Of a DNA stretch of 64,000 nucleotides, positions 3,215 through 20,832 are shown one piece after another. The stretch covers positions 124,001 to 188,000 of the forward strand of contig NZ_JFHE01000009.1 of assembly GCF_000698555.1 (NCBI RefSeq). Direction: 5' to 3'. The position numbers and the translations under genes are program-made. The stretch's first letter is position 1. Every line of letters starts with the position of its first letter. The notes beneath the pieces are model-generated. The model had not been told where the DNA came from and ran no database searches. It saw only the letters and a program-made list of their open reading frames with translations. This DNA comes from Caballeronia grimmiae. GTDB lineage: Bacteria > Pseudomonadota > Gammaproteobacteria > Burkholderiales > Burkholderiaceae.

Positions 3215-3838
3215 TTAGCCCGCGGGCGCTTCGACGAGTGCAACGCCCATCATCGACTCGGGCGTAACGAGCGCGGCGAGTTCTTCCTCACTCAGATGCT
3301 CCGTGTTTGCGGGACGCTCGGGCACCACGAACCAGCGAATCTGCGCGCTGCTGTCCCAAACCTTCACCTCCTTCGTGGCGGGCACCTGTACGCCGAATTC
3401 CTGCAAGACGGCGCGCGGTTCGCGCACCCCGCGCGCGCGAAATACAGGGTCCTTGTACCAATAGGGCGGCAATCCGAGCACCGGCCACGGATAACACGAA
3501 CACAGCGTGCAGATGATCAGGTTATGCACGTTCGCATCGTTCGCGACCGCGGCCATATGCTCGCCTTCCGCGCCCGTCATGCCGAGCGGAAGCGAGAGTT
3601 CGGCAATTGCCTTCGGCGTGTCCTCGACAAGACGCCTCGCGTAGTCCGGATCGACCCATGCGCGCGCGACGATCTTCGCGCCGTTGAACGGGCCGGCCAT
3701 CGTCTCGAAGTGTTTGAGCACGACATCGACGGAGTCGGTGGCAATCACGCCTTTTTCGATCAGCAAGGCTTCCAGCGCCCGCACTCTGGCGGCGCTCGAT
3801 GCTTCGCGGTCGTCGGAAAATTCGAAGAGTTCGCTCAT
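3215..3838 (-). CDS. nthA: Nitrile hydratase alpha subunit, cobalt type
   Basis: This is a 207-residue subunit that holds the non-corrin metal and, with the beta subunit, hydrates nitriles to amides. The claw motif CTLCSC lies at residues 110-115 (Cys110, Cys113, Ser114, Cys115), followed by YPWPVLGLPP. Threonine in the second position of CTLCSC is the cobalt-type signature; iron-type enzymes carry serine there. Cys113 and Cys115 are the residues normally oxidised to sulfinate and sulfenate. Length matches the family. It lies between the beta subunit (31 bases upstream) and the accessory protein. The nearby CbtAB and CobW-type genes agree with a cobalt enzyme. The ribosome-binding site is weak (GAGCGA). 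Confidence 0.95.
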   Translation of the reverse strand: MSELFEFSDDREASSAARVRALEALLIEKGVIATDSVDVVLKHFETMAGPFNGAKIVARAWVDPDYARRLVEDTPKAIAELSLPLGMTGAEGEHMAAVANDANVHNLIICTLCSCYPWPVLGLPPYWYKDPVFRARGVREPRAVLQEFGVQVPATKEVKVWDSSAQIRWFVVPERPANTEHLSEEELAALVTPESMMGVALVEAPAG

Positions 3839-3869: not shown

Positions 3870-4613
3870 TCAGTCGGCTGCCAGTATGTAGGCTTCGTAC
3901 AGGTCCGCGTAAATCGTCGTGTTCGGCTCGCTCTTGCCCGGGCCCCAGATCGACGTGGCGTCGAAGGCAACGCGATACACAGGCATCGGCGCGCCGATAC
4001 CGTCCACGCCCGTCGAGACGAAATAGGAGAACGCGCCGGGATAGGCGAGATCCACCACGCCGGTCTTGTTGCGCAGATACCCGGGCAAGCGCGTGTGGTC
4101 CACCGCTTCGGGATCGGCGATACGCACGGTATCGCCCGCTCGAAAGCGCGCCGCGCCGTCGAGCGCGTGATAGCCCGAGTCGCCGTTCTGCAGATAGGCG
4201 TCGATCTGCGCGGCGAGTTCGGCATTGGGGCGATCGGGTAAAGGCGCGTCCGGGTGCGCGCTGTAGTGGGCGGTTTTCTCTGCGAGTTCCTCTGCCGACA
4301 CATACCCCTGATCGACGAAAAACTGACTGATGCCGCCGAGCCACTTCTCGTAGTAGCGATATTTGAAGTACTCGAACGGCTGCATGTCTTCGGCGCCGGT
4401 GCGCAGCGACGCCCAGGTCCAGTTGCTTTTGAAGGCGGTGGGCAGCGTATCGACCGGATAGCGATGCGGCGCGTCCGACAGATGCGCACTCTCCGCCATC
4501 ATGACCGTATGAATGCCGAAGATGCGCTCTTCCCACGGCTCGACGAATACGCGCTTTTCGGTGCTGACCGGCCCCAGATTTTCGATGCCGCCGAGATGAT
4601 GTTGCAGTTTCAT
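3870..4613 (-). CDS. nthB: Nitrile hydratase beta subunit
   Basis: This is a 247-residue subunit that begins MKLQHHLGGIENLGPV; nitrile hydratase beta chains typically open with a motif like this. It ends in an SH3-like barrel (FRAGDTVRI near residue 155, and IWGPGKSEPNTTIYADLYEAY near the C-terminus) that closes over the alpha-subunit metal site. It is slightly longer than many relatives. CGGAG lies seven bases before ATG 4613. Gene order beta-alpha-accessory is that of cobalt-type operons such as those of Rhodococcus rhodochrous. Confidence 0.95.
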   Translation of the reverse strand: MKLQHHLGGIENLGPVSTEKRVFVEPWEERIFGIHTVMMAESAHLSDAPHRYPVDTLPTAFKSNWTWASLRTGAEDMQPFEYFKYRYYEKWLGGISQFFVDQGYVSAEELAEKTAHYSAHPDAPLPDRPNAELAAQIDAYLQNGDSGYHALDGAARFRAGDTVRIADPEAVDHTRLPGYLRNKTGVVDLAYPGAFSYFVSTGVDGIGAPMPVYRVAFDATSIWGPGKSEPNTTIYADLYEAYILAAD

Positions 4614-5179: not shown

Positions 5180-6148
5180 TCAGTTCATGCAACTTAGAAG
5201 TCCATCGCGCATTCGCGCGGCGTCGATGTTGCGGCCGATCATCACGAAACGGCTCTCGCGTGTTTCGCCGCGCATCCACGCACGGCCGAACGTGGTGTCG
5301 AGCAACATATGCACGCTGTGAAAATGCAGGCGTCGCGGTTCGTCGTGCATGTTGAGCACGCCTTTCATGCGCAGAAGCTGTGTGCCTTGCGTTTGCACGA
5401 GCTGATTGATCCATCGGTTGAAACGCGTCGCATCGATGCCGCCGGGCACCACGATCGCGCACGATGCAATGCTGTCGTCGTGTTCATGATCGTGGCTGTC
5501 TTCGTCGAGCAGATTCGGCTCGATGGCGAGCAGGTTGTCGACCGAAAAGCTCCGCGTGCCGAAAAGCGCATGCGCGTCGATCCTGGAACGCTGCGCGTAC
5601 TCGATGCGTGCAGTCGGATTGAGCCGGCGAATCCCGGCGACGAGCGCATCGACGGCATCGGACGAAACGAGATCCGTCTTGTTGATGACGATGCGGTCCG
5701 CGAACACCACTTGCTCCCGCGCGATATCGTCATGAAGCTGGGCCCGCGCGTGCATCGCATCGACCACGGCGACGACCGATTCCAGCTCCACGCGCTCGCG
5801 CACGTCGGGATCGGCGAGAAAGGTCTGTAGCACCGGCGCGGGATCGGCGAGGCCCGACGTTTCGATGATGAGCCGCTCCAGGCGATCGCCGAAGCGCATC
5901 AACATGTCGCGCACGCTGGCGACGAGATCGGTGCGGACCGTGCAGCAGACGCAGCCGTTGTTGATCTCGATCACGGCGCTTTCATCGGCGACGATCAACT
6001 GGCCGTCGATACCGACTTCGCCGAATTCGTTCACGACGATGCCGATCTGCATCGGCCGCGTGGATTCGAGCAGATGATTCACGAGTGTCGTCTTGCCGGC
6101 TCCAAGGAAACCGGTAATGACGGTGGCAGGCACTTTGGCGGGTCGCAT
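5180..6148 (-). CDS. CobW/P47K-family GTP-binding metallochaperone
   Basis: This is a 322-residue G3E-family GTPase. The P-loop GFLGAGKT lies at residues 13-20, the metal-binding GCVCC motif at 65-69, a DLV/NKTD guanine-specificity motif near residue 155, and a C-terminal CobW domain carries the terminal third. Such proteins deliver Zn, Co or Fe to client enzymes; P47K/CobW-like members are activators of iron-type nitrile hydratases. Here it is the first gene of a cobalt-type operon that also encodes a P14K-type accessory protein, so a role in cobalt delivery to nitrile hydratase is likely. AAGGA lies eight bases before ATG 6148. Confidence 0.88.
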   Translation of the reverse strand: MRPAKVPATVITGFLGAGKTTLVNHLLESTRPMQIGIVVNEFGEVGIDGQLIVADESAVIEINNGCVCCTVRTDLVASVRDMLMRFGDRLERLIIETSGLADPAPVLQTFLADPDVRERVELESVVAVVDAMHARAQLHDDIAREQVVFADRIVINKTDLVSSDAVDALVAGIRRLNPTARIEYAQRSRIDAHALFGTRSFSVDNLLAIEPNLLDEDSHDHEHDDSIASCAIVVPGGIDATRFNRWINQLVQTQGTQLLRMKGVLNMHDEPRRLHFHSVHMLLDTTFGRAWMRGETRESRFVMIGRNIDAARMRDGLLSCMN

Positions 6149-6263
6149 GAGGGTTATCCTTCGCGTGCGTCGATTAGGAACGCTTACGCTTTAGCGGCTT
6201 CCGTTCCGATTTCCCGCGCTTGGCCGCCATCGGGCGATACTTGGCGCGGCGTGCCTGACCACA

Positions 6264-6297
6264 TGTCCGTTCCCTTCAAAAGCGACACGGACGGACA
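6264..6297. promoter_or_regulatory. Inverted repeat TGTCCGT...ACGGACA, putative operator
   Basis: TGTCCGT (6264-6270) and ACGGACA (6291-6297) form a perfect 7-bp inverted pair around a 20-nt spacer. GTCCGTTC at 6265-6272 is identical to eight bases of the right half of the larger palindrome at 6383-6411, which suggests two sites for one regulator. It sits about 120-150 bases upstream of the cobW start. Confidence 0.35.
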
Positions 6298-6382
6298 AAA
6301 ACGCAGGTAAGGCGACGAAACACATTGGTGCGCGACGCGCATCGCCGGAGTGCAGGCAATGCCCTCTTCTCGCCCGCCGATA

Positions 6383-6411
6383 CGAACGGACGCGACCAGC
6401 CAGTCCGTTCG
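6383..6411. promoter_or_regulatory. Perfect 9-bp palindrome CGAACGGAC-N11-GTCCGTTCG, putative operator
   Basis: The two arms at 6383-6391 and 6403-6411 are perfect inverted copies, with arm centres 20 bp apart, about two helical turns. That is typical of a dimeric regulator binding one face of DNA. It lies about 235 bases upstream of the cobW start and shares its core with the repeat at 6264-6297. The GlxA-type protein at the operon end or the AraC-amidase fusion are candidate ligands, by inference only. Confidence 0.5.
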
Positions 6412-6619
6412 GGAGCGTTTCGTGGACGTCATGGATAGATGGACAGGCCCGCTCGTCTCAGTCATGCAAGCGATGCACGCGAGCGACGTGATGCGGCACA
6501 GGTGGCTGCGCGTTCGTGTTTGAGTGGACCAATCAAGTCGTCGGACCGACAGGGGAGGTATCGAGGTCCTGAATCGCGCCGATCAACGCTTCATCCGTTC
6601 GATCTCAACCTGACGAAGA

Positions 6620-7870
6620 TCAACGCTTCCTGTAGTTCGCGAACACGTCCTTGCGGATCGAACCATGTACGCCCCAGTTCGCGTCGACCACCTGCGTCAC
6701 GCCGAAGTCCGCCGCTACCGACATCAGCGCTATGGCTTCGTCTTCGCTTAAACCATGCACCGTCATCAGGAAGCGGCGCAGCTTGCGAAAGGCATCGCGC
6801 ATGGCTTTGTCAAGGCTCGCATGCTGCGCCACCTCTACCTGTGCGTTAGTCCCGAGTTCGGCCAGATAGTTGGGGAACGTGAAGCCATATACCGACCATT
6901 GCTGATCTGTCTCGAGCAGCGGATGCGTGAGCCCTTCGAGCAGCGTGCCTTCGAGGTCCGCTTTCTTATGCAGGATGAATTCGAAGTCCCCCGTCAAGGA
7001 TGTTTCGATAGCCGTGCCGCCTAGCTCGCTGTCGCCCTGCGCGGCGTGCGGGTCGCCCACGGAGAAGAGCGCGCCCTCGACCGCCACCGGGTAATACATG
7101 GTCGCGCCCCGGCCGATGCGCCAGTCGTCGATGTTGCCGCCCGTATAGCTCGGCGGAATGGAACTGACGTAGTCCGCTTCGGCGGGCGCGACGCCCATGG
7201 TGCCGAAATGCAGTCGCGCCGGCACGCGGATATCCGGCAAGATGTTTTCGCGCTTCGTCACGAGCCGGTGATCCACCTGCACGCCGGGATAATCGATAGT
7301 CGCATGCACGATGCCATCCGGGTCGGTCTGCGGCGTCCACACATAGTTGTAGACTGCGCGCGCATACGGTTCGCCGGAAGTATCGAGTTCGAAGATGGTC
7401 ACCACTTCGCGCGGCTTCGGCTCCTCGATCAAATCGTGATACTGAAAGCCCCACGACGCGGCCACGTTCGAGCCGAAGCACTTGCCTGCGTGACATGCGC
7501 TGCAACTGGGCCGCGGCCTGACATCGAGGATGCGCACTTCGAGCACGTCGCCAGCTTCGGCGCCTTCGATTGCCACCGGACCGGTCAGCAGATGCACGCC
7601 CACGCCTTCGCCGGCGCCCAGGCGGAACGGTCCTTCGGCCGGACCCGCGCCGCGCCGCGAAACGGCCTTGTGCTCGCGCGTCCATTCGAACACGCTTTGC
7701 GCGCCCGGATCGCCCGCGATCATGCGCTCGTGGTCGTCGTTCGCGTGATGCGTCAGCGTTTCGATGGTGGCGCGGTCGCCCGACTTGAGCGTGAGGCGTG
7801 GTTCTACCCGTTTGCTGAAGTATCCCCAATGCACGGTGGATGATGAAACGGGCAGCGTGTAATGCTTCAT
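6620..7870 (-). CDS. Acetamidase/formamidase family protein
   Basis: This is a 416-residue enzyme of the FmdA/AmdA family, hydrolysing short amides to ammonia and a carboxylate. Recognisable segments are STVHWGYFS near the N-terminus, AGDPGAQSVFEW around residue 55, FGSNVAASWGFQYHDL around 133, and the C-terminal LMSVAADFGVTQVVDANWGVH. Length is normal. It is in the same orientation as the nitrile hydratase operon, so it would remove the amide formed there, giving nitrile to amide to acid. It follows the ABC importer genes at 7910-10393 by 39 bases and is probably co-transcribed with them. AAGGA precedes ATG 7870. A full-length relative is fused to an AraC regulator at 10684-13041. Confidence 0.9.
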   Translation of the reverse strand: MKHYTLPVSSSTVHWGYFSKRVEPRLTLKSGDRATIETLTHHANDDHERMIAGDPGAQSVFEWTREHKAVSRRGAGPAEGPFRLGAGEGVGVHLLTGPVAIEGAEAGDVLEVRILDVRPRPSCSACHAGKCFGSNVAASWGFQYHDLIEEPKPREVVTIFELDTSGEPYARAVYNYVWTPQTDPDGIVHATIDYPGVQVDHRLVTKRENILPDIRVPARLHFGTMGVAPAEADYVSSIPPSYTGGNIDDWRIGRGATMYYPVAVEGALFSVGDPHAAQGDSELGGTAIETSLTGDFEFILHKKADLEGTLLEGLTHPLLETDQQWSVYGFTFPNYLAELGTNAQVEVAQHASLDKAMRDAFRKLRRFLMTVHGLSEDEAIALMSVAADFGVTQVVDANWGVHGSIRKDVFANYRKR

Positions 7871-7909: not shown

Positions 7910-9493
7910 TCAGTGCACGGTTTCGAGCGCACTGCCCGCGCCCATCACGTTGAGAAAGCGCGCCGTCAACGGATGATGCGGTCGCGTCAAAACCTGATGT
8001 GCAGGTCCGTCCTCCACGACGGTCCCGCCGCTCAGGAACACGACGCGGTCGGCCACTTCATCGGCGAAGCGCAACTGATGCGTCGAAATGATCATCGTCA
8101 GGCCATCGTCGAGCGCGAGGCGGCGGATCACTTCGAGCACTTCGCCCACGAGTTCGGGATCGAGCGCGGAAGTCGGCTCGTCGAGCAGCAGCACGCGCGG
8201 ATTCGGCGCCAGCGCACGCGCAATCGCCACGCGTTGTTGCTGGCCGCCGGACAGATGACGCGGCAGCGCATCGGCGCGATGCGCGAGGCCCACGCGTTCG
8301 AGCAGGGCATCCGCCCGACGCTCGGCATCGGCGAGCGTCGCGCCATGCACCCAGACGAGCGGCAATGCAATGTTCTCGCGCGCCGTCAGATGGCCGAATA
8401 GATTGAATTGCTGGAACACCATGGCGACGCCAAGACTCGCGCGCTCCTTCGCAAGCTCGCGCGGATTCATGCGCCGCCCGTCATCGCGAAAGCCGAGACG
8501 ACGTCCGCCCACGCGTATCTCGCCTTCTTCCCACTGTTCCAGATGATTGATGCAGCGAAGCAGCGTGCTCTTGCCCGAGCCGCTCGGTCCGAGCAACGCG
8601 ACGACTTCGCCCGAGCGGATGTCGAGATCGAAGCCATTGAGCACCGGCTGCTCGGCGTAATGCTTGTGTACGCCGCTTATCTGCACCGCGGTACTGTTAC
8701 GCGACAGCGCGTCGTAACGGCGTGCGCGGTCGCCAAGTGTGACGGGCGCCGGGACGAAGACAGGTGGCAGGTCGGTCGGGCCTGCGGGCTTCGTCGGTAC
8801 GGGCGGGCTCCGGCGTCGTCGCCAGAAGCCGCCGCGCGTGCTGGCGCGGTCCAGATCGAGCGCGCGTTCGATCATCAGTTGAATGGCGGCGATCGCGCCG
8901 GTCAGACACAAATACAAGAGACCCGACGCAAAGAAGATCGAAAAGAAGTCGAACGTCGACGATGCAAGCTGCGTGCTGCGCAAGGTCAGTTCACCCACCG
9001 AGATAACCGAAGCCAGCGAAGAGTTCTTCAACGCGCTGACGGTTTCGTTGCCGAGCGCGGGAATCATCGACCGAAGGGCCTGCGGCGCGATGATCCGGCG
9101 CATCAGCACGGAAGGCGTCATGCCGAGCGCCTGCCCCGCGAGCGTCTGTCCGCGATCCACGCCGAGCACGCCCGAGCGGAATATCTCCGCGATGAACGGC
9201 GCTTCGTTCGCGGCGAGCGCGAGGCCCGCCGCGCCGATGGCGCTCAGCTTGATGCCGATATGCGGCAGGGCGTCGTAGGCGAACACGAGTTGCAGAATCA
9301 GCGGCGTGCCGCGAAAAATCACCGTATAGCCGCGCGCGATGGCCGCGAGCGGTCCGATTCGGCTCAGCTGCATGGCGGCAAGGACGAGTCCCAGCACGAG
9401 GCCGCCCGCGAGTCCGAGCAAGGTGACGGTGATCGTGAAGCGGATGCCGTCGAGCAGATAAGGCAGGCCGAGATAGTGAAGGAACAGGTCCAT
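7910..9493 (-). CDS. Fused permease-ATPase of a polar amino-acid/amide-type ABC importer
   Basis: This is a 527-residue fusion. Residues 1 to about 215 are a HisM/GlnP-type permease with several membrane helices and the EAA-like loop (AGQALGMTPSVLMRRIIAPQA). A Pro/Arg-rich linker of about 50 residues follows. The rest is a GlnQ-type ATPase with Walker A GPSGSGKS, Q-loop FQQFNLF, signature LSGGQQQR and Walker B VLLLDEP. Permease-ATPase fusions of this type occur in Burkholderiaceae. It follows the binding protein by 18 bases and precedes the acetamidase, so the cargo is probably a small amide, amino acid or related nitrogen compound; specificity cannot be read from sequence. Confidence 0.9.
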   Translation of the reverse strand: MDLFLHYLGLPYLLDGIRFTITVTLLGLAGGLVLGLVLAAMQLSRIGPLAAIARGYTVIFRGTPLILQLVFAYDALPHIGIKLSAIGAAGLALAANEAPFIAEIFRSGVLGVDRGQTLAGQALGMTPSVLMRRIIAPQALRSMIPALGNETVSALKNSSLASVISVGELTLRSTQLASSTFDFFSIFFASGLLYLCLTGAIAAIQLMIERALDLDRASTRGGFWRRRRSPPVPTKPAGPTDLPPVFVPAPVTLGDRARRYDALSRNSTAVQISGVHKHYAEQPVLNGFDLDIRSGEVVALLGPSGSGKSTLLRCINHLEQWEEGEIRVGGRRLGFRDDGRRMNPRELAKERASLGVAMVFQQFNLFGHLTARENIALPLVWVHGATLADAERRADALLERVGLAHRADALPRHLSGGQQQRVAIARALAPNPRVLLLDEPTSALDPELVGEVLEVIRRLALDDGLTMIISTHQLRFADEVADRVVFLSGGTVVEDGPAHQVLTRPHHPLTARFLNVMGAGSALETVH

Positions 9494-9511: not shown

Positions 9512-10393
9512 TTACCTGGCAACGACGAGTTGCGGCGTCGCGAGATTCTCGACGCCGAGGCCCCACTTCTTGAGCAGCTCGGACTGCGCGCCGCTCTTCT
9601 GAATGGCGACGAGCGCGGCCATCACGGCATCGCGGAAATCGGGCTTGTCCTTCGGCACGCCGATGCCCACGAAGTACGGCAAGGTCACGGCAGTCGCTTT
9701 CTCAAGCTTGTCCGGATACGCCTTCACCGCCTGGTCGACTGTGTTCACGTCGTTGATGTACGTATCCGCGCGGCCCGCGAGAATGGCCTGGATGCAGTTG
9801 GCGTTGTTGTCGTAGAGCTGCACGGTGGCTTCGGGCTTGCCGGCCGACTTGCATTGCGGAGCCAGCGCCTGAATCAGCGGGACTTCCACATAGCCCGTGT
9901 TTTCGGCGGCGGTCGTGCCGCACATCGATGTGTTGATGCCGGTGATCTTCTTCGGATTGCCCTTGGCGACGAGTACGCCGTCGAACACCTTCGAGTACGT
10001 GATGAAGTCGGCGGCCTTGGCACGCTCCTCGGTCGCGTAGATATCGGAGATGACGATATCGGCCTGACCGCTCTGCAAGGTCGTGAGCAGCGCGGCGAAG
10101 GTCACGGGCTTGTAGGCCATCGTGAAGCCGAGACATTGCGCGATCAACTCGCCCAGATCGATATCGAAGCCGATGTACTTGCTCGGATCGTTCGGGTCGA
10201 GCGCTTCATAGCCCGGCGTATGTGGGTTGATTGCATTGGTGAGTGTCTTGCCCTTGAACTGCGGGTACTTCGCCTGCAACGCGCTGCACTCTGCGGGCGC
10301 GGCGGCGTGCGCCTGTCCCGCGAAGGCGAACAACACCGCGCACAGCGCGCCAAGTCCTGCGCGAGATAAACGGCCCACGAGATTCCTTTGCAT
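9512..10393 (-). CDS. Periplasmic binding protein of a polar amino-acid-type ABC importer
   Basis: This is a 293-residue secreted protein. The N-terminus MQRNLVGRLSRAG is followed by a hydrophobic core and an AHA-type signal peptidase site near residue 30. The mature part is a family-3 solute-binding fold (YIGFDIDLGELIAQCLG, then LTTLQSGQADIVISDIYAT, then ADTYINDVNTVDQAVK). AGGAG lies seven bases before ATG 10393. It heads the minus-strand transcription unit leading to the permease-ATPase and the acetamidase, and is divergent from the AraC-acetamidase gene at 10684. Confidence 0.9.
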   Translation of the reverse strand: MQRNLVGRLSRAGLGALCAVLFAFAGQAHAAAPAECSALQAKYPQFKGKTLTNAINPHTPGYEALDPNDPSKYIGFDIDLGELIAQCLGFTMAYKPVTFAALLTTLQSGQADIVISDIYATEERAKAADFITYSKVFDGVLVAKGNPKKITGINTSMCGTTAAENTGYVEVPLIQALAPQCKSAGKPEATVQLYDNNANCIQAILAGRADTYINDVNTVDQAVKAYPDKLEKATAVTLPYFVGIGVPKDKPDFRDAVMAALVAIQKSGAQSELLKKWGLGVENLATPQLVVAR

Positions 10394-10683
10394 CGATACG
10401 CTCCTGACGGCTGATGACGATTGACTTGCGATGCCCAGAGCGTAGGCGACCGAAATCTTGCGAACTTGACTGGCTGCGCACAACTGCTGGTATTGGCGTG
10501 CACGCTCATCCAAGAGCGCATGGCGCAGCGCGTCGCGTGACGCGCGCAAGTGCAGGCGTGCGCCGCGATGGCACATGTATGCACTGTCTTCGATACGCGA
10601 TGCACCCGGCGCCGCAACCATCGCGATGGCGTGAAGGTTGCTTTTGGAATGCTTTTCCTGCTTCGCCCACCGTGGAGTTTTCG
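10394..10683. promoter_or_regulatory. Divergent intergenic region between the ABC importer and the AraC-acetamidase gene
   Basis: About 290 bases separate the two divergent starts, enough for back-to-back promoters and a shared operator. I could not define -35/-10 boxes with confidence. Part of the region may be coding, because in-frame ATGs at 10579 and 10600 and a GTG at 10672 would lengthen the fusion protein; none has a ribosome-binding site. Confidence 0.35.
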
Positions 10684-13041
10684 TTGAACCTGTCGCGCTT
10701 CACCACCGAGTCGTATCCCGAGTTCGAACGCCAGCGTGAATGGAACGCGGCGCTCGCACGTCTCGGATGGCGCGGCAAGATCGAAGGCGGCGAACGCGGT
10801 TTGCACGGCACGCTGACATCGCGCGTATCGGCGGGCGGCATCGAATTCACGACCATCGCCTCGGCCGCGCAGACGCTGCAGATGAGCGCGGATCATGCGG
10901 ACAGTCTCATGCTGGTGCTGCTGATCGATGGCGACGCCACGCTCGTCGCCGATGGTCTGCGCGAGCGCGTGAGCCCGCATGACATCGCGTATGCAGCGCC
11001 CGGACAGAGCGCGTCACTGGTTTTCGCGGGACGCTTTCGCGCGTTCATCGTGCGGGCGCCCAAGAGCGCTTTCAACGCGCGCGTCATTTCGCCGCTCTCG
11101 CTGCGCGTGGCCTTGTTGCCGGGCGCGACGGGCATCGGCCACATCTTCTCGGGCTTTCTGCGTTCTGTCGTGGAAAGCCTCGAAACGCTGAGCGCGGAGG
11201 AGTTGCGTCCCGCCGAACTCGCACTCGCCGAAATGCTCGTGGCCTGTCTTGCCGGACAGGAACGCAAAGGTTCGTTCAACGGGCTGACGCCGCCGCAGTC
11301 GGCGTTGTTCGCGCGACTGTGCCGCTTTATCGAAACGCATCTCGCCGATTCAACGCTGAGCGTGGCCTCGCTCGCCAAAGACGAACGCGTGTCGCCGCGT
11401 TACGTGCAGAAGCTGTTCGAACTCGCCGGACAGAGTTTTTCGACTTATGTGCGCTCGCGCCGCCTCGAACGCTGCCGCGCGGAACTGGCCGATCCGCTCT
11501 CGGAGAAAGTCTCCATATCCGACATCTGCTTTCGCTGGGGCTTCAACGATCCGGCGCACTTCAGCCGCGTGTTCCGCGAGCGTTATGGCGCATCGCCTCG
11601 CACGTTCCGCCACGAAGCGAACCTGGAACTCGCGCGCCATCTCGTGCATTCGCTATCGCGCGGGCTGCCGGTGAACGCCGCAAGCCTGATCGCGCAAGCG
11701 CGCAGTGAGGAGACGGGCGACACGCTCGTCGCCGTGCGCGAAGAAAGCGATGCCGTGCAAGCGCGGCCCGCGCGGACGGGCGGCAGGCCGCGGCATCATT
11801 TGCTGCGCGCAACGGCGAACACGGTGCACTGGGGCTATTTCAGCCACGATCTCAAGCCCGCGCTCGAAGTCGCGAGCGGCGATACGGTGACGGTCGAAAC
11901 GCTTACGCAGCATGCTGCGGATGACTGGGACCGCATGATCGCGGGCGATCCCGGTGCGGAGAGCGTGTTCCACTGGACACCCGAACGCAAGAACGTCGAC
12001 CGTCGCGGCGCGGGCCCGATGAACGCCTCCATCTATGGACGCGGCGCGGGCGAAGGCTTCGGCGTGCATATCTGCACCGGGCCGATTGCGGTGACGGGCG
12101 CGCAACCGGGCGATGTGCTCGAAGTGCGCATCGTCGATATTCATCCTCGCCGCTGCAAGAATCCGAAGTTCCACGGCCGCGCGTTTGGCAGCAACGTCGC
12201 GGCGTGGTGGGGCTTTCATTATCGCGAGCTGCTCACCGAACCGAAGCCGCGCGAAGTCGTAACCATCTACGAGATCCACACGGACGATGCGCGCGACGAC
12301 AGCGCCTATGCGCGCGCCGTCTATAACTATCGCTGGACGCCGCAGCGCGATCCGTTCGGCGTGCTGCATCCGATCATCGATTATCCGGGCGTGCCGGTGG
12401 ATCACGCGAGCGTGGTCGAGAATCACGACGTGCTGAAGAACGTGACCATTCCCGTGCGGCCGCACTTCGGCGTGATCGGCGTGGCGCCGCAACAGAACGG
12501 TCTGATCGATTCGATTCCGCCATCGGCCTTCGGCGGCAATCTCGACAACTGGCGCGTCGGCCCGGGCGCAAGCGTGTTTCTGCCGGTCGGCGTGGCCGGC
12601 GCGCTCTTGTCAATCGGCGACCCGCATGCGTCGCAAGGAGATTCCGAGTTGTGCGGCACGGCCATCGAATGCTCGCTCACCGGCCACTTCGAACTGATCC
12701 TGCACAAGAAGCACACGCTTGCCTCGCAGTCGTTCGCGGACCTCACGTATCCGCTCGTCGAAACCGCCGATGAATGGGTGCTGCACGGATTCAGCCATCC
12801 CGACTATCTGGCCGAATTCGGCACCAGCGCGCAAAGCGAGGTCTATCAAAAGTCCACGCTGGATCAGGCCATGCGCGATGCCTTCATCAAGACTCGGCGG
12901 TTCCTGATGTCCACCAAGGGACTCACCGAAGACGAAGCCATCTCGCTGATGTCGGTGGCGGTGGACTTCGGCGTCACGCAAGTCGTCGATGGCAACTGGG
13001 GCGTGCACGCGATCATCCGCAAGGCGTTGTTCACGGATTGA
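10684..13041 (+). CDS. Fusion of an AraC-type transcriptional regulator with acetamidase/formamidase
   Basis: One uninterrupted frame of about 785 codons encodes two complete proteins. Residues about 1-315 are an AraC regulator: a beta-rich sensor half resembling AraC-binding-like domains, then a double helix-turn-helix (LSVASLAKDERVSPRYVQKL near 225-245 and ISDICFRWGFNDPAHFSRVF near 278-297). After a linker of about 50 residues, residues about 371-785 form a full-length acetamidase/formamidase, with NTVHWGYFS, AGDPGAESVFHW, FGSNVAAWWGFHYREL and the LMSVAVDFGVTQVVDGNWGVH end. It aligns along its whole length with the separate enzyme at 6620-7870. I chose TTG 10684 because GTGGAG lies six bases upstream; GTG 10672 and ATG 10600 or 10579 are alternatives. 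A DNA-binding enzyme sensing its own substrate is the obvious hypothesis. Confidence 0.88.
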   Translation: MNLSRFTTESYPEFERQREWNAALARLGWRGKIEGGERGLHGTLTSRVSAGGIEFTTIASAAQTLQMSADHADSLMLVLLIDGDATLVADGLRERVSPHDIAYAAPGQSASLVFAGRFRAFIVRAPKSAFNARVISPLSLRVALLPGATGIGHIFSGFLRSVVESLETLSAEELRPAELALAEMLVACLAGQERKGSFNGLTPPQSALFARLCRFIETHLADSTLSVASLAKDERVSPRYVQKLFELAGQSFSTYVRSRRLERCRAELADPLSEKVSISDICFRWGFNDPAHFSRVFRERYGASPRTFRHEANLELARHLVHSLSRGLPVNAASLIAQARSEETGDTLVAVREESDAVQARPARTGGRPRHHLLRATANTVHWGYFSHDLKPALEVASGDTVTVETLTQHAADDWDRMIAGDPGAESVFHWTPERKNVDRRGAGPMNASIYGRGAGEGFGVHICTGPIAVTGAQPGDVLEVRIVDIHPRRCKNPKFHGRAFGSNVAAWWGFHYRELLTEPKPREVVTIYEIHTDDARDDSAYARAVYNYRWTPQRDPFGVLHPIIDYPGVPVDHASVVENHDVLKNVTIPVRPHFGVIGVAPQQNGLIDSIPPSAFGGNLDNWRVGPGASVFLPVGVAGALLSIGDPHASQGDSELCGTAIECSLTGHFELILHKKHTLASQSFADLTYPLVETADEWVLHGFSHPDYLAEFGTSAQSEVYQKSTLDQAMRDAFIKTRRFLMSTKGLTEDEAISLMSVAVDFGVTQVVDGNWGVHAIIRKALFTD

Positions 13042-14794: not shown

Positions 14795-15053
14795 CGAAGC
14801 TCCGTAATTCTGCCTATTCATGGCGGGCATGGGCGGCGCCCATCATGCATTCATCGGATGCGCGCGTTTCGCTTTATCAGCGGAAGCGGCGGGAACGAGC
14901 ATCAGTTTGCCTTATGCAAAATGGATGCGCGATGCCCGACTTATCCTGGCCGCGTCGGATTAGTGACAACAGATGTCGAGTTTGTGCCGGTTCTACCGAT
15001 TTTGGCCCGGTACATTCGACCAACGCTGGCATCGGGATGCGCGGGAGGCCGCA

Positions 15054-15776
15054 GTGGATACGCTGGTTTTTATCTGGAATAACGCGGCATCGATCGGGCA
15101 CATGCTGGTCGATCACGTGCTGCTCGTGCTGGCCGGGGTTGGCTGCGCGATCGTCACGGGCGTCGCGCTCGGCATCGTCATCACGCTCAACGAGCGGTTC
15201 GCGCGCGTCGTGCTCTATACCGCCGCGATGCTGATGACGATCCCGTCGATCGCGCTCTTCGGCCTGCTGATTCCGGTGCTGTCGCTGATCGGCCAGGGCA
15301 TCGGCTTTCTGCCCGCCGCCATCGCGCTCTTTCTCTATTCGCAGTTGCCGATCCTGCGCAACACCTACGCGGCGATCCGCAATCTCGATCCCGCGCTGCG
15401 CGAAGCCGCGCTCGGCATGGGCATGACGCCGTGGCAGCGGCTCTATCGCGTTGAAATGCCGATCGCCGTGCCGATCATCATGGCGGGCGTGCGCATGGCC
15501 GTGGTGATGAACATCGGCATCGCGGCAATCGCGACGTATATCGGCGCGGGCGGGCTCGGGCGGCTCATCAGCCGCGGCATTTCGCAGTCGGACCCGCGTC
15601 AGCTCGTGGCGGGCGCGGTGATTGTCGCGCTGCTCGCGATCCTCGCCGATCTCGGCCTCGCCGCGCTGCAATGGCGTCTTACGCCGCAAGGCATGCGGCC
15701 GCGCCGCGCGCGTTTTCTCTGGCGGCGCACCGCGCCTTTCACCAGCACGGCGGTCCAATCGGCGGAGGCACGATGA
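15054..15776 (+). CDS. Osmoprotectant/quaternary-amine ABC importer permease (OpuC/YehW type)
   Basis: This is a 240-residue permease with about six membrane helices. The EAA loop REAALGMGMTPWQRLYRVEMPIAVP and the AIATYIGAGGLGRLISRGI segment are typical of glycine betaine/choline importers of the ProW/OpuCB family. The GTG start at 15054 was chosen because GGGAGG lies five bases upstream; an upstream ATG extension has no such site. Its stop overlaps the ATPase start (ATGA). With 15773-18617 it forms a permease-ATPase-permease-binding protein operon. Confidence 0.9.
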   Translation: MDTLVFIWNNAASIGHMLVDHVLLVLAGVGCAIVTGVALGIVITLNERFARVVLYTAAMLMTIPSIALFGLLIPVLSLIGQGIGFLPAAIALFLYSQLPILRNTYAAIRNLDPALREAALGMGMTPWQRLYRVEMPIAVPIIMAGVRMAVVMNIGIAAIATYIGAGGLGRLISRGISQSDPRQLVAGAVIVALLAILADLGLAALQWRLTPQGMRPRRARFLWRRTAPFTSTAVQSAEAR

Positions 15777-16957
15777 TCGATCTTCGAAACCTGACGAAGC
15801 GCTTCGAGTCGCGCGGCGCGAAGCCGGTCGTCGACGATATCTCGATGACCGTCGAGGAAGGCGAACTGTGCGTGCTGCTCGGCCCGTCCGGCTGCGGCAA
15901 GACCACGACGCTCAAGATGATCAACCGCCTCGTGCAGCCGACCTCGGGCCAGATCCTGATCGGCGGCGCCGATACGGCGGGCTTCGACATCGTCGAGCTG
16001 CGGCGGCGCATCGGCTACGCGATCCAGCAGGTCGGCCTGTTTCCGAACATGACGGTCGCGGAGAACATCGGGCTCGTGCCGCAGATGCTCGGCTGGGACA
16101 AGCCGCGCATCCGCGCGCGCACGGAAACGCTGCTCGCGATGGTCTCGCTCGATCCGGCGACCTACATGCCCGCGTATCCGCGCGATCTGTCGGGCGGGCA
16201 GCAGCAGCGCGTCGGCGTGGCGCGCGCGCTCGCCGCCGATCCGCCGGTCATGCTGATGGACGAGCCGTTCGGCGCGATCGATCCGATCAACCGCACGTCG
16301 ATTCAGGACGAGTTCCGCCACATCCAGAAGAGCCTCAGGAAGACCGTGATGTTCGTGAGCCACGACATCGACGAGGCCATGAAAATGGGCGACAAGGTCG
16401 CAATTTTCCGCGACGGCAGGATCGAGCAGATGGCGAGTCCGGACGAACTGCTCGCGCGTCCGGCGAGCGCGTTCGTCGCGGATTTCGTCGGCGCCGACCG
16501 CGCGTTGAAGCGTCTGCGCCTGATGCGCGCGGCCGATGCGGCGCTGGAACCGGCGCGCGTCGCCCGCTGCGGTTTTCCGAGCGCGGATGCGCGTGCGCTG
16601 TTGCGCGATCATCTCGCCGATACGCTCGTCGTGCTCGACGCGCAGGACAAGCCCGTCGGCCATGTCGGTCCGATGGAACTCGCCGCCGGCGGCGCGACCC
16701 TCGACGCCGCGCAAGTGCGCGCGCTGCCCGCCGTCGTGCGCGCGAGCGACGACCTGCGCTCGGTCATGTCGATGCTGCTCGCGCACGGCGCAAGCTGGCT
16801 GCCGGCCGTCGACGCGGACGGACGCTTCATCGGTTACGTGACGCACGAACGCATCGCGTCGATGGCGCGCGGTGCGTGCGCGTCGGGCGAGGCGTCGCCG
16901 CACGCGATCGCGGCCGCGCCAGATGCAGCCGAACTCGCGATCGGAGCGGCGCGATGA
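15773..16957 (+). CDS. Osmoprotectant/quaternary-amine ABC importer ATPase with C-terminal CBS domain
   Basis: This is a 394-residue ATPase. Walker A GPSGCGKT lies near residue 38, Q-loop QQVGLFP, signature LSGGQQQR, Walker B VMLMDEPFG and switch His in VSHDIDEAMKMG. The C-terminal 130 residues, ending with a GYVTHERIASMA segment, are CBS-like; in OpuA/OpuC relatives such domains gate transport by ionic strength or nucleotide. ATG 15773 overlaps the previous stop, and its own stop overlaps the next start, so three genes are translationally coupled. Confidence 0.92.
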   Translation: MIDLRNLTKRFESRGAKPVVDDISMTVEEGELCVLLGPSGCGKTTTLKMINRLVQPTSGQILIGGADTAGFDIVELRRRIGYAIQQVGLFPNMTVAENIGLVPQMLGWDKPRIRARTETLLAMVSLDPATYMPAYPRDLSGGQQQRVGVARALAADPPVMLMDEPFGAIDPINRTSIQDEFRHIQKSLRKTVMFVSHDIDEAMKMGDKVAIFRDGRIEQMASPDELLARPASAFVADFVGADRALKRLRLMRAADAALEPARVARCGFPSADARALLRDHLADTLVVLDAQDKPVGHVGPMELAAGGATLDAAQVRALPAVVRASDDLRSVMSMLLAHGASWLPAVDADGRFIGYVTHERIASMARGACASGEASPHAIAAAPDAAELAIGAAR

Positions 16958-17670
16958 ATCCCCGCTTCGCGCGCATCGCGGCGGGCGCGGCGATCGCGCT
17001 GCTCTGCGCATCGGCGCGTGCGGACAACTGGTTTGCATCGATCGGGCAGTATCGCGCGGACATCGTGTATCAGGCGGGCCAGCAAATGCTGATGGTGCTG
17101 ATCGCGGGCATCGCGGCGATTCTCGTCGCGGTTCCGGTGGGCATCTGGCTGAGCCGTCCGGGCAACGGCCGCGCCGCGCATTTGGTGATGTTCACGCTCA
17201 ACGCGGGCCAGGCCGTGCCGAAACTCGCGATCCTCGCGCTCGCGATGAGCGTGCTCGGCATCGGCGCGAAGCCCGCAATTCTCGCGCTGTGGCTCGCCAC
17301 GCTGCTGCCCATTGCGATGAACACCTACGAAGGCATCCGCGCCGTGCCGCCCGCGATGATCGAGGCGGCCAACGGCATCGGCATGACGCAATGGCAGATT
17401 CTGCGCAAGGTCGAACTGCCGAACGCGATGTTCGTGATTCTCGCAGGCGTGCGAACGGCGCTCGCGATCACCGTCGGCACCGCGCCGCTCGCGTTTCTCG
17501 TCGGCGGCGGCGGGCTCGGCGAACTCATCTTCACCGGCATCGACCTGAACGATTTCCCGATGCTGCTTGCCGGCGCCATTCCGACCGCCCTCCTCGCGGT
17601 CGCCACCGACCTGTTCGTCGCGCAGCTGCAGCACTGGCTCGTGCCGCGCGGCGTCAGTCCTCAACGTTGA
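16954..17670 (+). CDS. Second permease of the osmoprotectant/quaternary-amine ABC importer
   Basis: This is a 238-residue permease. A signal-like first helix ends ASARADNW, followed by about five to six membrane helices. The EAA loop reads IEAANGIGMTQWQILRKVELPNA, and LAFLVGGGGLGELIFTGI follows as in its partner at 15054. Paired, non-identical permeases are normal for OpuC/Yeh-type systems. ATG 16954 overlaps the ATPase stop by four bases. Confidence 0.9.
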   Translation: MNPRFARIAAGAAIALLCASARADNWFASIGQYRADIVYQAGQQMLMVLIAGIAAILVAVPVGIWLSRPGNGRAAHLVMFTLNAGQAVPKLAILALAMSVLGIGAKPAILALWLATLLPIAMNTYEGIRAVPPAMIEAANGIGMTQWQILRKVELPNAMFVILAGVRTALAITVGTAPLAFLVGGGGLGELIFTGIDLNDFPMLLAGAIPTALLAVATDLFVAQLQHWLVPRGVSPQR

Positions 17671-17693
17671 TCCTTCTCCCGGAACCGAAGCCC

Positions 17694-18617
17694 ATGTTCA
17701 AGCCGCTTTTGTCACGCAAGCCGTGGTCGCGCCTCGTCGGCGCAACGCTCTTCGCGCTCGCCCTCGGCGCGTTCGGCGCGAGCCAGTCCGCGCGGGCGGC
17801 ATCGACCATCACCGTCGGTGGGAAGAACTTCACGGAGCAGGTCCTGCTCGCGGAAATGACCACGGAACTGCTGAAGGCGAAGGGCTTCGATGTCGTGAAG
17901 AAGGACGGCATGGGCAGCACGGTGCTGCGCCAGGCGCAGGAGAACGGACAAGTCGACGTGTACTGGGAATACACCGGCACGTCGCTCATCACCTACAACA
18001 AAGTCACCGACAAGCTCGATCCGCAGCAGACCTACGCGCGCGTGAAGGAACTCGATGCGCAGAAGGGTCTCGTCTGGCTCGATCCTTCGAAGGCGAACGA
18101 TACCTACGGCCTCGCGATGAACCGCGACGTCGCGCAGAAGCTCGGGATCGCGACGCTCAGCGATCTCGCGAAGGTGCTCAACAGCGGCAAGGCACTGACC
18201 TTCGCGTGCAATTCCGAGTTCTACGCGCGGCCCGACGGCCTGCGTCCGCTGGAAAAGGAATACGGGTTTCACTTCGAGCCGTCCCAGATCAAGCGGATGG
18301 ATTCGGGCCTCACATATCAGGCGCTCAAGGATCGTCAGGTCGACACCGCGCTCGTCTTCACGACCGATGGCCGCGTGCCCGCGTTCAACTTCATCGTGCT
18401 GCGCGACGACAAGAACTTCTTCCCCGCCTACGCGCTCACGCCGGTCGTGCGCAAGGCGACGCTCGACGCCAATCCGAAGCTCGCCGACATCCTCAACGCG
18501 CTCTCCGCCAAGCTCGACGACGCGACGATGGCGCGCCTGAACGCCGAAGTCGACGTGCAGAAGAAGTCGCTCAGCGACGTCTCGGGCGCGTTCCTCAAGT
18601 CCGCCGGCCTGCTCTGA
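17694..18617 (+). CDS. Osmoprotectant/quaternary-amine binding protein (OpuAC/OsmX type)
   Basis: This is a 307-residue secreted protein with a signal peptide ending near ARAASTI. The mature protein opens with ITVGGKNFTEQ, the canonical start of glycine betaine/choline/carnitine-binding proteins, and contains DVYWEYTGTS, a quaternary-ammonium cage region in relatives. It is 23 bases after the second permease. The exact ligand (betaine, choline, carnitine, proline betaine or another methylated amine) cannot be fixed from sequence. Confidence 0.92.
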   Translation: MFKPLLSRKPWSRLVGATLFALALGAFGASQSARAASTITVGGKNFTEQVLLAEMTTELLKAKGFDVVKKDGMGSTVLRQAQENGQVDVYWEYTGTSLITYNKVTDKLDPQQTYARVKELDAQKGLVWLDPSKANDTYGLAMNRDVAQKLGIATLSDLAKVLNSGKALTFACNSEFYARPDGLRPLEKEYGFHFEPSQIKRMDSGLTYQALKDRQVDTALVFTTDGRVPAFNFIVLRDDKNFFPAYALTPVVRKATLDANPKLADILNALSAKLDDATMARLNAEVDVQKKSLSDVSGAFLKSAGLL

Positions 18618-18620
18618 CCG

Positions 18621-19493
18621 ATGCGCGCGATGGAACCCTTGCTCGTCGCGGCGGCGCAGGTCGAAACGGTCGCCGGCGATCTCGCGGCGAACCTCGCATC
18701 GCATCGGCGAATGATCGAACAGGCGGCCGCGCGCGGTGTGCGGCTGCTCGTGTTTCCCGAGTTGTCGCTCGCCGGGCACGGGGCGGGCGAGCACGCGCTG
18801 AAGCTCGCCATCACGCGCGACGACCGCGTGCTGCTCGAACTCGCGCGCGACTGCACGTCGCTGTGCGCGGTCGTAGGCTTCATCGAGGAAGCGCCCGGCG
18901 CGTTGTTCTACAACAGCGTCGCGACGCTGCATGCGGGGCGCGTGGTGCACGTGCATCGAAAGATTGCGCTGGCGACATATGGCCGGCTCGACGACGGCAA
19001 GTTCTACGGACACGGCGAACGTCTCGATCAGTTCGCGTTGCCCGGCGATCCGCGCTGGCGCGTCGCGACGCCGATCTGCGCCGACCTGTGGAGTCCCGCG
19101 CTGATGCATCGCCTCGCGCGCGACGGCGCCACGTTGTGCGCCGCGCCGGTGAGTTCCGCCATCGAAGCCGTCGGCACCGGATTCGACAATCCGCGCGGCT
19201 GGGAGACCGTGTTGCGCGCGCATGCGCTCGTCTACGGCTTGCCGGTCGTGTTCGCGAATCGCGTCGGCCGGGAAGGCGCGCTGCATTTCTGGGGCGGCTC
19301 GCGCATCGTCGGTCCGCGCGGCGAAATCCTCGCGCAAAGCGAGTCGCCGTGCGAGGAGCTCGTCGTTGCATCGCTCGATTACGACGCTGTGCGCAACGCG
19401 CGTTTCGATCTGCCGACGGTCCGCGACGCCCGCGCCATCGACACGATTCTCGCGCAGCGCGCGCCCGGAAACGACATCGTGTCGGTTTCGTGA
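18621..19493 (+). CDS. Carbon-nitrogen hydrolase (nitrilase superfamily)
   Basis: This is a 290-residue enzyme with the Glu-Lys-Cys triad of the superfamily: Glu47 in FPELSL, Lys114 in HRKIAL, Cys153 in PICADLW. This fold hydrolyses nitriles or, more often, amides and N-carbamoyl compounds. It starts three bases after the binding-protein stop, so it belongs to the quaternary-amine operon and may release the substrate from an amide form or process a later intermediate. ATG 18630 is an alternative start. True nitrilase activity is unlikely from family distribution, but it cannot be excluded. Confidence 0.85.
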   Translation: MRAMEPLLVAAAQVETVAGDLAANLASHRRMIEQAAARGVRLLVFPELSLAGHGAGEHALKLAITRDDRVLLELARDCTSLCAVVGFIEEAPGALFYNSVATLHAGRVVHVHRKIALATYGRLDDGKFYGHGERLDQFALPGDPRWRVATPICADLWSPALMHRLARDGATLCAAPVSSAIEAVGTGFDNPRGWETVLRAHALVYGLPVVFANRVGREGALHFWGGSRIVGPRGEILAQSESPCEELVVASLDYDAVRNARFDLPTVRDARAIDTILAQRAPGNDIVSVS

Positions 19494-19578
19494 TCGGGTT
19501 GGTCGTCTGCCTGTTGGCATCGGCGAAAACGGCGGCAGACAATCGATTCAACTGATCGTTCGCACGGAGAGCATGACG

Positions 19579-20832
19579 ATGATCGACCCGACGCGCGTGC
19601 GCGCCGCCCTCGCGCAACGCCGCGACAATTTCTCGCTGCCGCAGCCGTTTTATACCGACGACGCGTTTCACCAGCTCGATATCGACGCGGTCTTCAACGA
19701 CGAATGGCTCTTCGCGTGCAATGTCTGCGAGTTGCGCGAGCCGGGCGATTATCTGACGCTTGAAATCGGTCCGACTTCCGCGATCGTGCTACGCGATAAC
19801 GACGGCGAGATTCGCGCGTTCTTCAATACGTGCCGGCATCGCGGCTCGCGCATCTGTCTCGATGAAAAAGGCCGCGCGCATCGCCTGACGTGCGCGTATC
19901 ACCAGTGGGTCTACGAACTCGACGGCTCGCTGCTGCATGCGCGGCAGATGCCCGCGGGCTTCGAGCGCGAAGCGTATGGCTTGCGGCCCGTGCATGTCGA
20001 AATCGTGTGCGGCATGGTCTATATCTGCCTCGCCGATACGCCGCCCGACATCGCGCGCTTTCGCGACGCCGTGACGCCGTACATCGCGCCGCATCAGCCG
20101 TGGCGCACGAAAGTCGCCGCCGTCTCGACGATGATCGAGGACGCGAACTGGAAGCTCGTCATCGAGAACAATCGCGAGTGCTATCACTGCGCCGGCAATC
20201 ATCCGGAACTGCTCGCGACGCTGATCGAATTCGCCCTGCCCGACGATCCCGCCGGCTCGGGCGACTTCCGTTTGCTGATGGACGCGCAAGCCGCGAAGTG
20301 GGAACGTCACGGCCTGCCTCATCTGCCCGCCGATGGCGGCGACGAGTTCCGCTGCATCCGGCTGCCATTTCATCGCGGCGCGGTGTCGTTCACGCCGGAC
20401 GGATCGCCCGCGTGCGCGAAGCTGCTCGGCGATCTCACCGAGCCGGATCTCGGTTCGGTGCGCATGTTCCGCGTGCCGAACAACTGGAACCACTTTCTCG
20501 CGGATCACATCATTCACTTCCGGATTCTGCCGCTGTCGGCGTCGCGCACGATGCTGCGCACGACTTGGCTCGTGCATGAGGACGCGGTCGAAGGCGTCGA
20601 TTACGACATCGACAAGCTGACCTCGGTGTGGAACGCGACCAACACGCAGGACGCGCGGCTCGCGGCAAACAATCAGCTCGGCGTCGGGTCCATCGCATAT
20701 ACGCCGGGTCCGTATGCGCCGTCCGAATTCATGCTGCGCAACTTCACCAACTGGTATGCGAACAAGCTCGCGTCGTATCTCGACGGCACGCATGCGCATC
20801 GTTCGATCGAACTGAAGGTGTCGAATGGCTGA
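19579..20832 (+). CDS. Rieske oxygenase alpha subunit, glycine betaine monooxygenase (GbcA)-like
   Basis: This is a 417-residue oxygenase. The Rieske cluster ligands are CRH at residues 85-87 and C105-x2-H108 (CAYH). The mononuclear iron triad is in the ECYHCAGNH stretch (Glu200, His203, His208). This layout matches oxygenases that N-demethylate quaternary amines with O2, such as GbcA, and also stachydrine and carnitine relatives. ATG 19579 was chosen because GGAGA lies eight bases upstream; ATG 19573 is nearly as likely. Its reductase overlaps at 20825. Glycine betaine is the first guess for substrate; proline betaine is a serious alternative. Confidence 0.87.
   Translation: MIDPTRVRAALAQRRDNFSLPQPFYTDDAFHQLDIDAVFNDEWLFACNVCELREPGDYLTLEIGPTSAIVLRDNDGEIRAFFNTCRHRGSRICLDEKGRAHRLTCAYHQWVYELDGSLLHARQMPAGFEREAYGLRPVHVEIVCGMVYICLADTPPDIARFRDAVTPYIAPHQPWRTKVAAVSTMIEDANWKLVIENNRECYHCAGNHPELLATLIEFALPDDPAGSGDFRLLMDAQAAKWERHGLPHLPADGGDEFRCIRLPFHRGAVSFTPDGSPACAKLLGDLTEPDLGSVRMFRVPNNWNHFLADHIIHFRILPLSASRTMLRTTWLVHEDAVEGVDYDIDKLTSVWNATNTQDARLAANNQLGVGSIAYTPGPYAPSEFMLRNFTNWYANKLASYLDGTHAHRSIELKVSNG

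Follow-up and report, generated by a model that had tools for sequence, protein, structure and literature searches.

Beside a gene for a separate amidase, one open reading frame joins a complete AraC-type regulator to a complete acetamidase/formamidase, which raises the questions of whether this frame is a genuine single gene and what an enzyme would do on a transcription regulator. The frame lies in a 64,000-nucleotide stretch of DNA (hereafter, the window; Table 1).

A single gene for an AraC regulator and a complete amidase

The original prediction described one frame with an AraC sensor, a double helix-turn-helix (HTH), a linker and a complete amidase, and Pfam matches and end-to-end alignments agree with this. 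The Pfam domains are AraC_binding_2 (residues 46–188, 1.8e-10), HTH_18 (230–310), HTH_AraC (268–310) and FmdA_AmdA, and both 3b9t and the separate amidase encoded at 6620–7870 (59%) align with the amidase part over its full length. The N-terminal sensor/dimerisation domain and the double HTH that define the AraC/XylS family are both present, the amidase part has the profile and the fold of PF03069, and an enzyme fold and a DNA-binding domain share one chain, as in trigger enzymes. The formamidase FmdA equivalog model NF045496 gives the fusion 59.5 bits against a curated cut-off of 500, and the separate window amidase is likewise below it (61.9 bits). The TTG start codon at 10684 follows a GGAG box that is found in 12 of 13 aligned relatives, L053 being the exception. 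Residues 313–370, which number 58 in the window protein, range from 49 to 97 in length among 49 fusions; the mutual placing of the two halves in the predicted model (pTM 0.55) was left out of the analysis.

Table 1. Coordinates of the genes, protein domains and regulatory elements in the window
Feature	Position	Strand	Remarks
Nitrile hydratase alpha subunit	3215..3838	-	Local neighbour
Nitrile hydratase beta subunit	3870..4613	-	Local neighbour
CobW-family GTPase	5180..6148	-	Probable metal chaperone; local neighbour
Separate cytoplasmic amidase	6620..7870	-	FmdA_AmdA; 416 aa
ABC importer	7910..9493	-	Permease and ATPase in one protein; 527 aa
Periplasmic binding protein	9512..10393	-	SBP_bac_3
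-10-like TACGCT of the importer–amidase operon	10439..10444	-	19 nt past the operator
Candidate AraC operator	10464..10491	-	Direct repeat, 22-bp period; ACCAGC ... TCAAGT
Operator core	10464..10481	-	GTGCGC-N6-TCAAGT
NtrC-like dyad	10559..10575		5' of the sigma54-type promoter; 9/12 consensus bases
Sigma54-type -24/-12 promoter	10627..10642	+	TGGCGTGAAGGTTGCT
Shine-Dalgarno GGAG of the fusion	10674..10677	+	Ahead of the TTG start
AraC–amidase fusion gene	10684..13041	+	785 aa; 85.9 kDa; one open frame
AraC_binding_2 sensor/dimerisation domain	10696..11283	+	Residues 5–200; CuxR, BgaR and AraC fold matches
AraC double helix-turn-helix	11296..11619	+	Residues 205–312; invariant residues; dN/dS 0.055–0.19
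Linker	11620..11787	+	Residues 313–368; variable, probably flexible; pLDDT <50 at 317–366
FmdA_AmdA amidase domain	11788..13038	+	Residues 369–785

The fusion is a genuine single gene and not an error. The frame is intact in same-genus relatives at 97–98, 91, 80, 78, 74, 73 and 72% identity, and over all relatives compared it remains so as identity falls from 98% to about 45%, which shows that no stop is hidden near the junction. Nor did an internal translation start at the junction find support, in agreement with the earlier remark that no ribosome-binding site is visible there: an ATG with a GGAG, GAGG or AGGA box occurs at the junction in none of 49 fusions, and a GTG or TTG with such a box occurs in 9 of the 49, scattered and within the range of seven control segments (2–27 of 49).

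Both the HTH and the amidase are under purifying selection. In seven fusion pairs (NG86; dS exceeds 1, near saturation, in some of them), dN/dS is 0.02–0.08 for the amidase, 0.06–0.30 for the sensor and 0.18–0.74 for the linker (one pair not computable), with the HTH values given in Table 1. Mean identity to the window protein over 48 fusions is 75% in the amidase, 61% in the HTH, 38% in the sensor and 27% in the linker; among 49 fusions, no residue is invariant in positions 1–200, and many are in the HTH and the amidase.

Distribution, neighbours and ancestry of the fusion

The same two-domain architecture was sought elsewhere and found to be kept in many genera, so that homologues are not always two genes, although unfused pairs of AraC and amidase genes do occur. 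Of 398 genomes of the family, 64 have a match at 1e-60 and 59 have the fusion by counted rows; 57 of these give one alignment, two (G307 and G130) give two collinear pieces within a single open frame, and the remaining five matches are to a lone or partial amidase only. A class sample of 369 genomes yielded only the window's own genome and one lone amidase. In a phylum sample, the amidase part was matched in 17 of 398 genomes, eight of which, the own genome included, have it fused. The fusion is thus common in the family and patchy outside it, with fewer occurrences among the remaining Beta-, Alpha- and Gammaproteobacteria. Among plasmids, 15 of 17 matching records span at least 80% of the query.

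For comparison of loci, the best 80 of 204 relatives were used (hereafter, the best 80 loci), a choice that favours fusions, so that the family and phylum samples are less biased; near-identical loci were retained in the counts of intact fusions, partner amidases, sigma54 elements and tandem operators. These best 80 loci come from Caballeronia, Paraburkholderia, Pararobbsia, Variovorax, Delftia, Rubrivivax and Aquabacterium, and further from Pseudomonas, Methylophaga, Ancylobacter, Parvibaculum, Rhizobiaceae and others. The fusion is full-length and in a single frame in 77 of them; in the other three, L075 (Burkholderia sp. E7m39) is frameshifted, L096 is a second, decayed copy in Burkholderia turbans, and L100 is cut by a contig end. 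A further locus, L010, was considered as a distant fusion and rejected: its gene (L010:1384-2079) encodes a Tat-exported amidase with an internal deletion, a still open frame of 231 aa and no AraC part.

As had been pointed out, the fusion gene is divergent from the importer and amidase genes, a position that suits a local regulator. A second FmdA_AmdA gene is present in 72 of the best 80 loci, a count in which the second match of L096 is its own fragment and the partner of L103 is cut; the partner is an approximately 416-residue cytoplasmic enzyme, a short enzyme or a Tat-exported enzyme. The binding protein is found at more than 40% identity in 42 of the best 80 loci, and the importer that combines permease and ATPase in a single polypeptide recurs next to the fusion in many loci. 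The link to nitrile genes that the original prediction drew looks local. CobW, DUF1097 and nitrile hydratase genes lie 3' of the window amidase gene, and the nitrile hydratase alpha subunit has a CTLCSC motif that we take to be of the cobalt type; a 322-residue gene at the place of CobW clusters in only two of the best 80 loci (L047 and L048).

Other neighbours vary. In Paraburkholderia, a RidA-like gene (L067:10394-10858) or a polysaccharide-deacetylase-like gene (L059:10516-11415) directly follows the fusion, each hinting at a substrate route. Within the window, positions 14973–20832 hold, as judged by eye, a betaine-type ABC importer followed by a carbon–nitrogen hydrolase (18621–19493), as well as a glycine-betaine-monooxygenase-like protein that scores under its NCBIfam cut-off; this is possibly a separate cluster for betaine use.

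A tree was built from 173 amidase domains, of which 85 are fused and 88 stand alone. All fused domains lie on one side of one branch (SH-aLRT 97), and they group with 21 stand-alone enzymes, mostly Tat-exported (97). This one clade beside Tat-exported enzymes indicates that the fusion is probably old and arose once. Rows L055_st2 (remote), L100_st0 (cut by a contig end), L075_st0 (the frameshifted fusion) and L110_st1 were removed before this tree was built; in an earlier tree with these rows, where L100 and L075 were labelled stand-alone, the label needs three changes. Both are quick trees without bootstrap. The same position beside Tat-type enzymes led to rejection of the idea that the local partner amidase was recently duplicated to give the fused domain.

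The AraC parts do not support a single clade of fused forms: on a tree of 111 of them (95 fused and 16 unfused), the label needs four changes. Unfused AraC genes beside short amidases (L040 and L181–L184) nest among fused ones near Parvibaculum, and given the single origin on the amidase side they may be read as having lost the amidase domain, which suggests that at least one lineage can do without this domain. The pairs of L181 and L183 have a metabolic setting different from that of the fusion, next to an apparent ferredoxin-type reductase (by eye) and next to a protein that weakly matches carnitine dioxygenase.

The fused domains could also be compared with stand-alone ones residue by residue. 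Conserved columns, defined as those kept in at least 95% of 69 long and 90% of 19 short stand-alone domains, number 101, and 81 of these are kept in at least 95% of the 85 fused domains. All 85 fused domains retain H462, D477, H594, N619, D621, D646, H648, Q651, D653, E655 and Q766, of which H462, D477, H594, N619, D621, D646, H648, D653 and E655 may be catalytic. The available portions of PMC5341072 and PMC10781810 name no catalytic residues for PF03069. Position 409 is Gln in 81 of 85 fused domains (Q409 in the window protein) and His in 88 of 88 stand-alone ones; position 597 is Thr in none of 85 (V597 in the window protein) against 85 of 88; and position 599 is Gly in seven of 85, the window protein included, against 88 of 88. 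The fused amidase has therefore retained its core while residues beside conserved histidines have shifted. Such shifts would fit altered turnover or ligand sensing, and the retained core residues would fit plain catalysis equally well.

Conserved elements upstream of the fusion and of the importer–amidase operon

The general consensus sequences of sigma54 -24/-12 promoters and of NtrC sites were used for searches upstream of the fusion gene, where the conserved island in aligned regions ends about 40 bp 5' of the start codon. A -24/-12 element, as is required of a sigma54-transcribed gene, precedes the fusion. Of 78 loci from the best 80, 47 have the pattern TGGYRYN-N4-TTGC at a distance of 47–132 bp upstream of the fusion start and 31 do not; in controls with the same pattern, random segments gave a mean of 0.9 and a maximum of 3 of 77, and the reverse strand gave 2 of 78. 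Over the 1.33 Mb of the best 80 loci, 48 of 89 pattern matches are located at a fusion start, 46 before intact fusions and two before the broken L075 and L096, which still have the element. In the co-directional operons of L067–L073, the element lies between the amidase and the fusion, and hence serves the fusion. The window element matches the pattern perfectly, and with one mismatch allowed there are four matches in 64 kb where seven are expected, so that the support comes from conservation and not from the single match.

Of the 48 sigma54-type elements, 31 are preceded by an NtrC-like dyad that agrees with the consensus at 9 or more of 12 bases, compared with 38 of 480 control segments; such dyads are mostly absent from Comamonadaceae-type loci. 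These dyads suggest that NtrC would act on the sigma54-type promoter of the fusion.

A second conserved element lies before the importer–amidase operon. A motif search in 30 upstream regions of importer operons returned GTGCGC-N6-(A/T)CAAG(T/C), with log-likelihoods of 250 (width 18) and 355 (width 24) against 57–62 and 74–79 for three shuffles each, which preserve base composition only and had 25 starts against 60 for the real search. All of the 25 sites examined, which are the first of a list of 43, have a second CAAG with at least three of four bases exactly 22 bp upstream; at any other offset of 10–30, at most five of these 25 do. A -10-like hexamer follows about 19 nt after the operator in most sites.

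Among the best 80 loci, 37 of the 42 with an importer have the tandem site at the promoter of the binding-protein gene, and 10 of the 17 sorted as Tat-type (three of them fragments) have it ahead of the amidase. The 1.33 Mb of the best 80 loci contains 66 tandem sites, 53 of which lie ahead of the binding protein or the partner amidase; of the other 13, eight are in five Parvibaculum loci and are perhaps further targets. These operator-like sites away from the amidase (L080, L081, L083, L095 and L119) are 3.4–4.4 kb (minus strand) and 0.6–1.6 kb (plus strand) into the locus. No tandem site was found in the fusion loci L186, L187 and L188 or in the unfused loci L040 and L181–L183, and L184 has only weak ones. 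Half-sites in L181 and L183 had suggested an operator common to unfused AraC loci, an idea that was dropped when the 22-bp repeat was made a requirement.

Genome-wide searches bear on the specificity of this element. The core pattern matches the own genome once (10464–10481), and this match by itself proves little because the backward control has six. Two regions had been proposed as DNA targets of the fusion protein; 10394–10683 contains this conserved candidate operator, and 6149–6619 has no strict match. With an extended pattern, 54 genomes yielded 15 perfect sites, none of them farther than about 4.5 kb from a fusion. Of the 26 fusion genomes, 15 have such a site and 11 do not; the 28 fusion-free genomes have none. 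With one mismatch the pattern is unspecific (28 of 54 genomes, nine of them fusion-free). Since the extended pattern was built partly from these loci, only its absence elsewhere is independent. Together with the 22-bp direct repeat being the typical operator form of AraC proteins, the location of these sites leads us to infer that the fusion binds the candidate operator.

Possible role of the amidase domain

The reading that we favour, with a confidence slightly better than even, is that the fusion acts as a local activator of transcription for amide use, made via sigma54, with the amidase fold as a ligand-recognition module; confidence is lowered because the window protein retains G599. Under nitrogen shortage, the sigma54 promoter, probably with NtrC, would cause the fusion to be made. 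An amide would then be recognised, more likely by the fused amidase fold or else by the AraC sensor, bringing the protein into an activator state in which the AraC part would occupy the 22-bp direct repeat immediately ahead of the -10 element in the amidase or importer–amidase promoter. Activation of this sigma70-type promoter would lead to amide uptake and hydrolysis. The amidase domain would most likely serve ligand recognition, with or without a slow turnover that resets the signal. A more specific version is somewhat less likely than not: the amidase domain, with its shifted near-constant positions, would bind the amide and signal to the AraC part, slow hydrolysis would clock the signal off, and the sigma54 promoter would add nitrogen status, giving an AND gate.

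Three other explanations can be set against this reading. If the AraC sensor alone senses the inducer, the fused part could be an ordinary amidase tethered by a flexible linker without any signalling; the retention of the core residues in every one of the 85 fused domains, a linker of variable length and low model confidence, the complete AraC_binding_2 domain and the occurrence of unfused AraC–amidase pairs would all agree with this. We consider it unlikely, as a separate amidase is already encoded in 72 of the best 80 loci, which makes a second ordinary copy on the regulator hard to explain, the join has persisted across three classes as one clade, and positions 409, 597 and 599 are shifted in most fused domains. 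The kept amidase core, the sensor domain and the partner enzyme or importer alongside would equally suit a self-limiting activator, whose AraC domain senses the amide and whose active amidase destroys it near the promoter as a built-in off-switch. This is improbable, since a few regulator molecules would hardly deplete a diffusible amide in a cytoplasm rich in the partner amidase.

The candidate operator might instead belong to another regulator while the fusion acts on genes elsewhere, given that the operator was recognised by its conservation and that L186–L188 carry the fusion and have no tandem site. We regard this as the least probable reading, because 53 of 66 tandem sites in the best 80 loci lie ahead of the partner operon or amidase, importer-free loci too have the site in front of Tat-type amidases, no perfect extended site occurs in the 28 fusion-free genomes, and AraC proteins typically use a 22-bp direct repeat.

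Proteins that join a DNA-binding domain to an enzyme fold are a known kind, Ada and PutA among them. Trigger enzymes of the PutA type, with catalysis and DNA binding in one chain, couple the state of the active site to DNA binding, and the fusion, which the original prediction likened to them, resembles them in its domain architecture. The fusion differs from AraC/XylS activators such as AraC, FeaR and CuxR by a complete 417-residue C-terminal enzyme domain after the HTH, and few known regulators, to our knowledge, carry a whole enzyme beside a complete AraC regulator. From the 3b9t-like Tat-exported subfamily of PF03069, the fused domain differs in having no export signal, in being joined to a DNA-binding protein and in the residues at positions 409 and 597, which have shifted (as has 599 in most fused domains, the window protein excepted). 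In Klebsiella, the regulator Nac is made by NtrC/sigma54 and drives sigma70 promoters; unlike the fusion, it belongs to the LysR family, acts globally and has no enzyme domain. MocR/GabR proteins, as far as the available part of the source describes them, likewise join a DNA-binding domain to a whole enzyme fold, which serves as the sensor (PMC5320631), but they have GntR-type DNA binding, an aminotransferase fold and no separate AraC sensor. In the formamidase cluster fmdCABDEF of Methylophilus methylotrophus, the regulator is separate and putative according to the part of PMC10781810 available, whereas that in the window is fused to the amidase.

No published description of an AraC–acetamidase/formamidase fusion was found in the open-licence literature, in line with the earlier view that the system is undescribed; within the accessible text of that literature, AraC, acetamidase and formamidase came up together only in connection with Listeria and bile. 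In databases, the architecture is present as unnamed entries, ‘acetamidase/formamidase family protein’ or ‘AraC family transcriptional regulator’, and in annotated plasmid records the regulator half is mostly hidden under the former name.

Natural controls accompany the fusion: relatives both with and without the join, partner amidases of three kinds, and an operator and a promoter that are candidates located to the base. These make the question of an enzyme domain as sensor directly testable. An amide biosensor is a possible use. The proposed role would explain how amide use is controlled in a number of soil and plant-associated bacteria.
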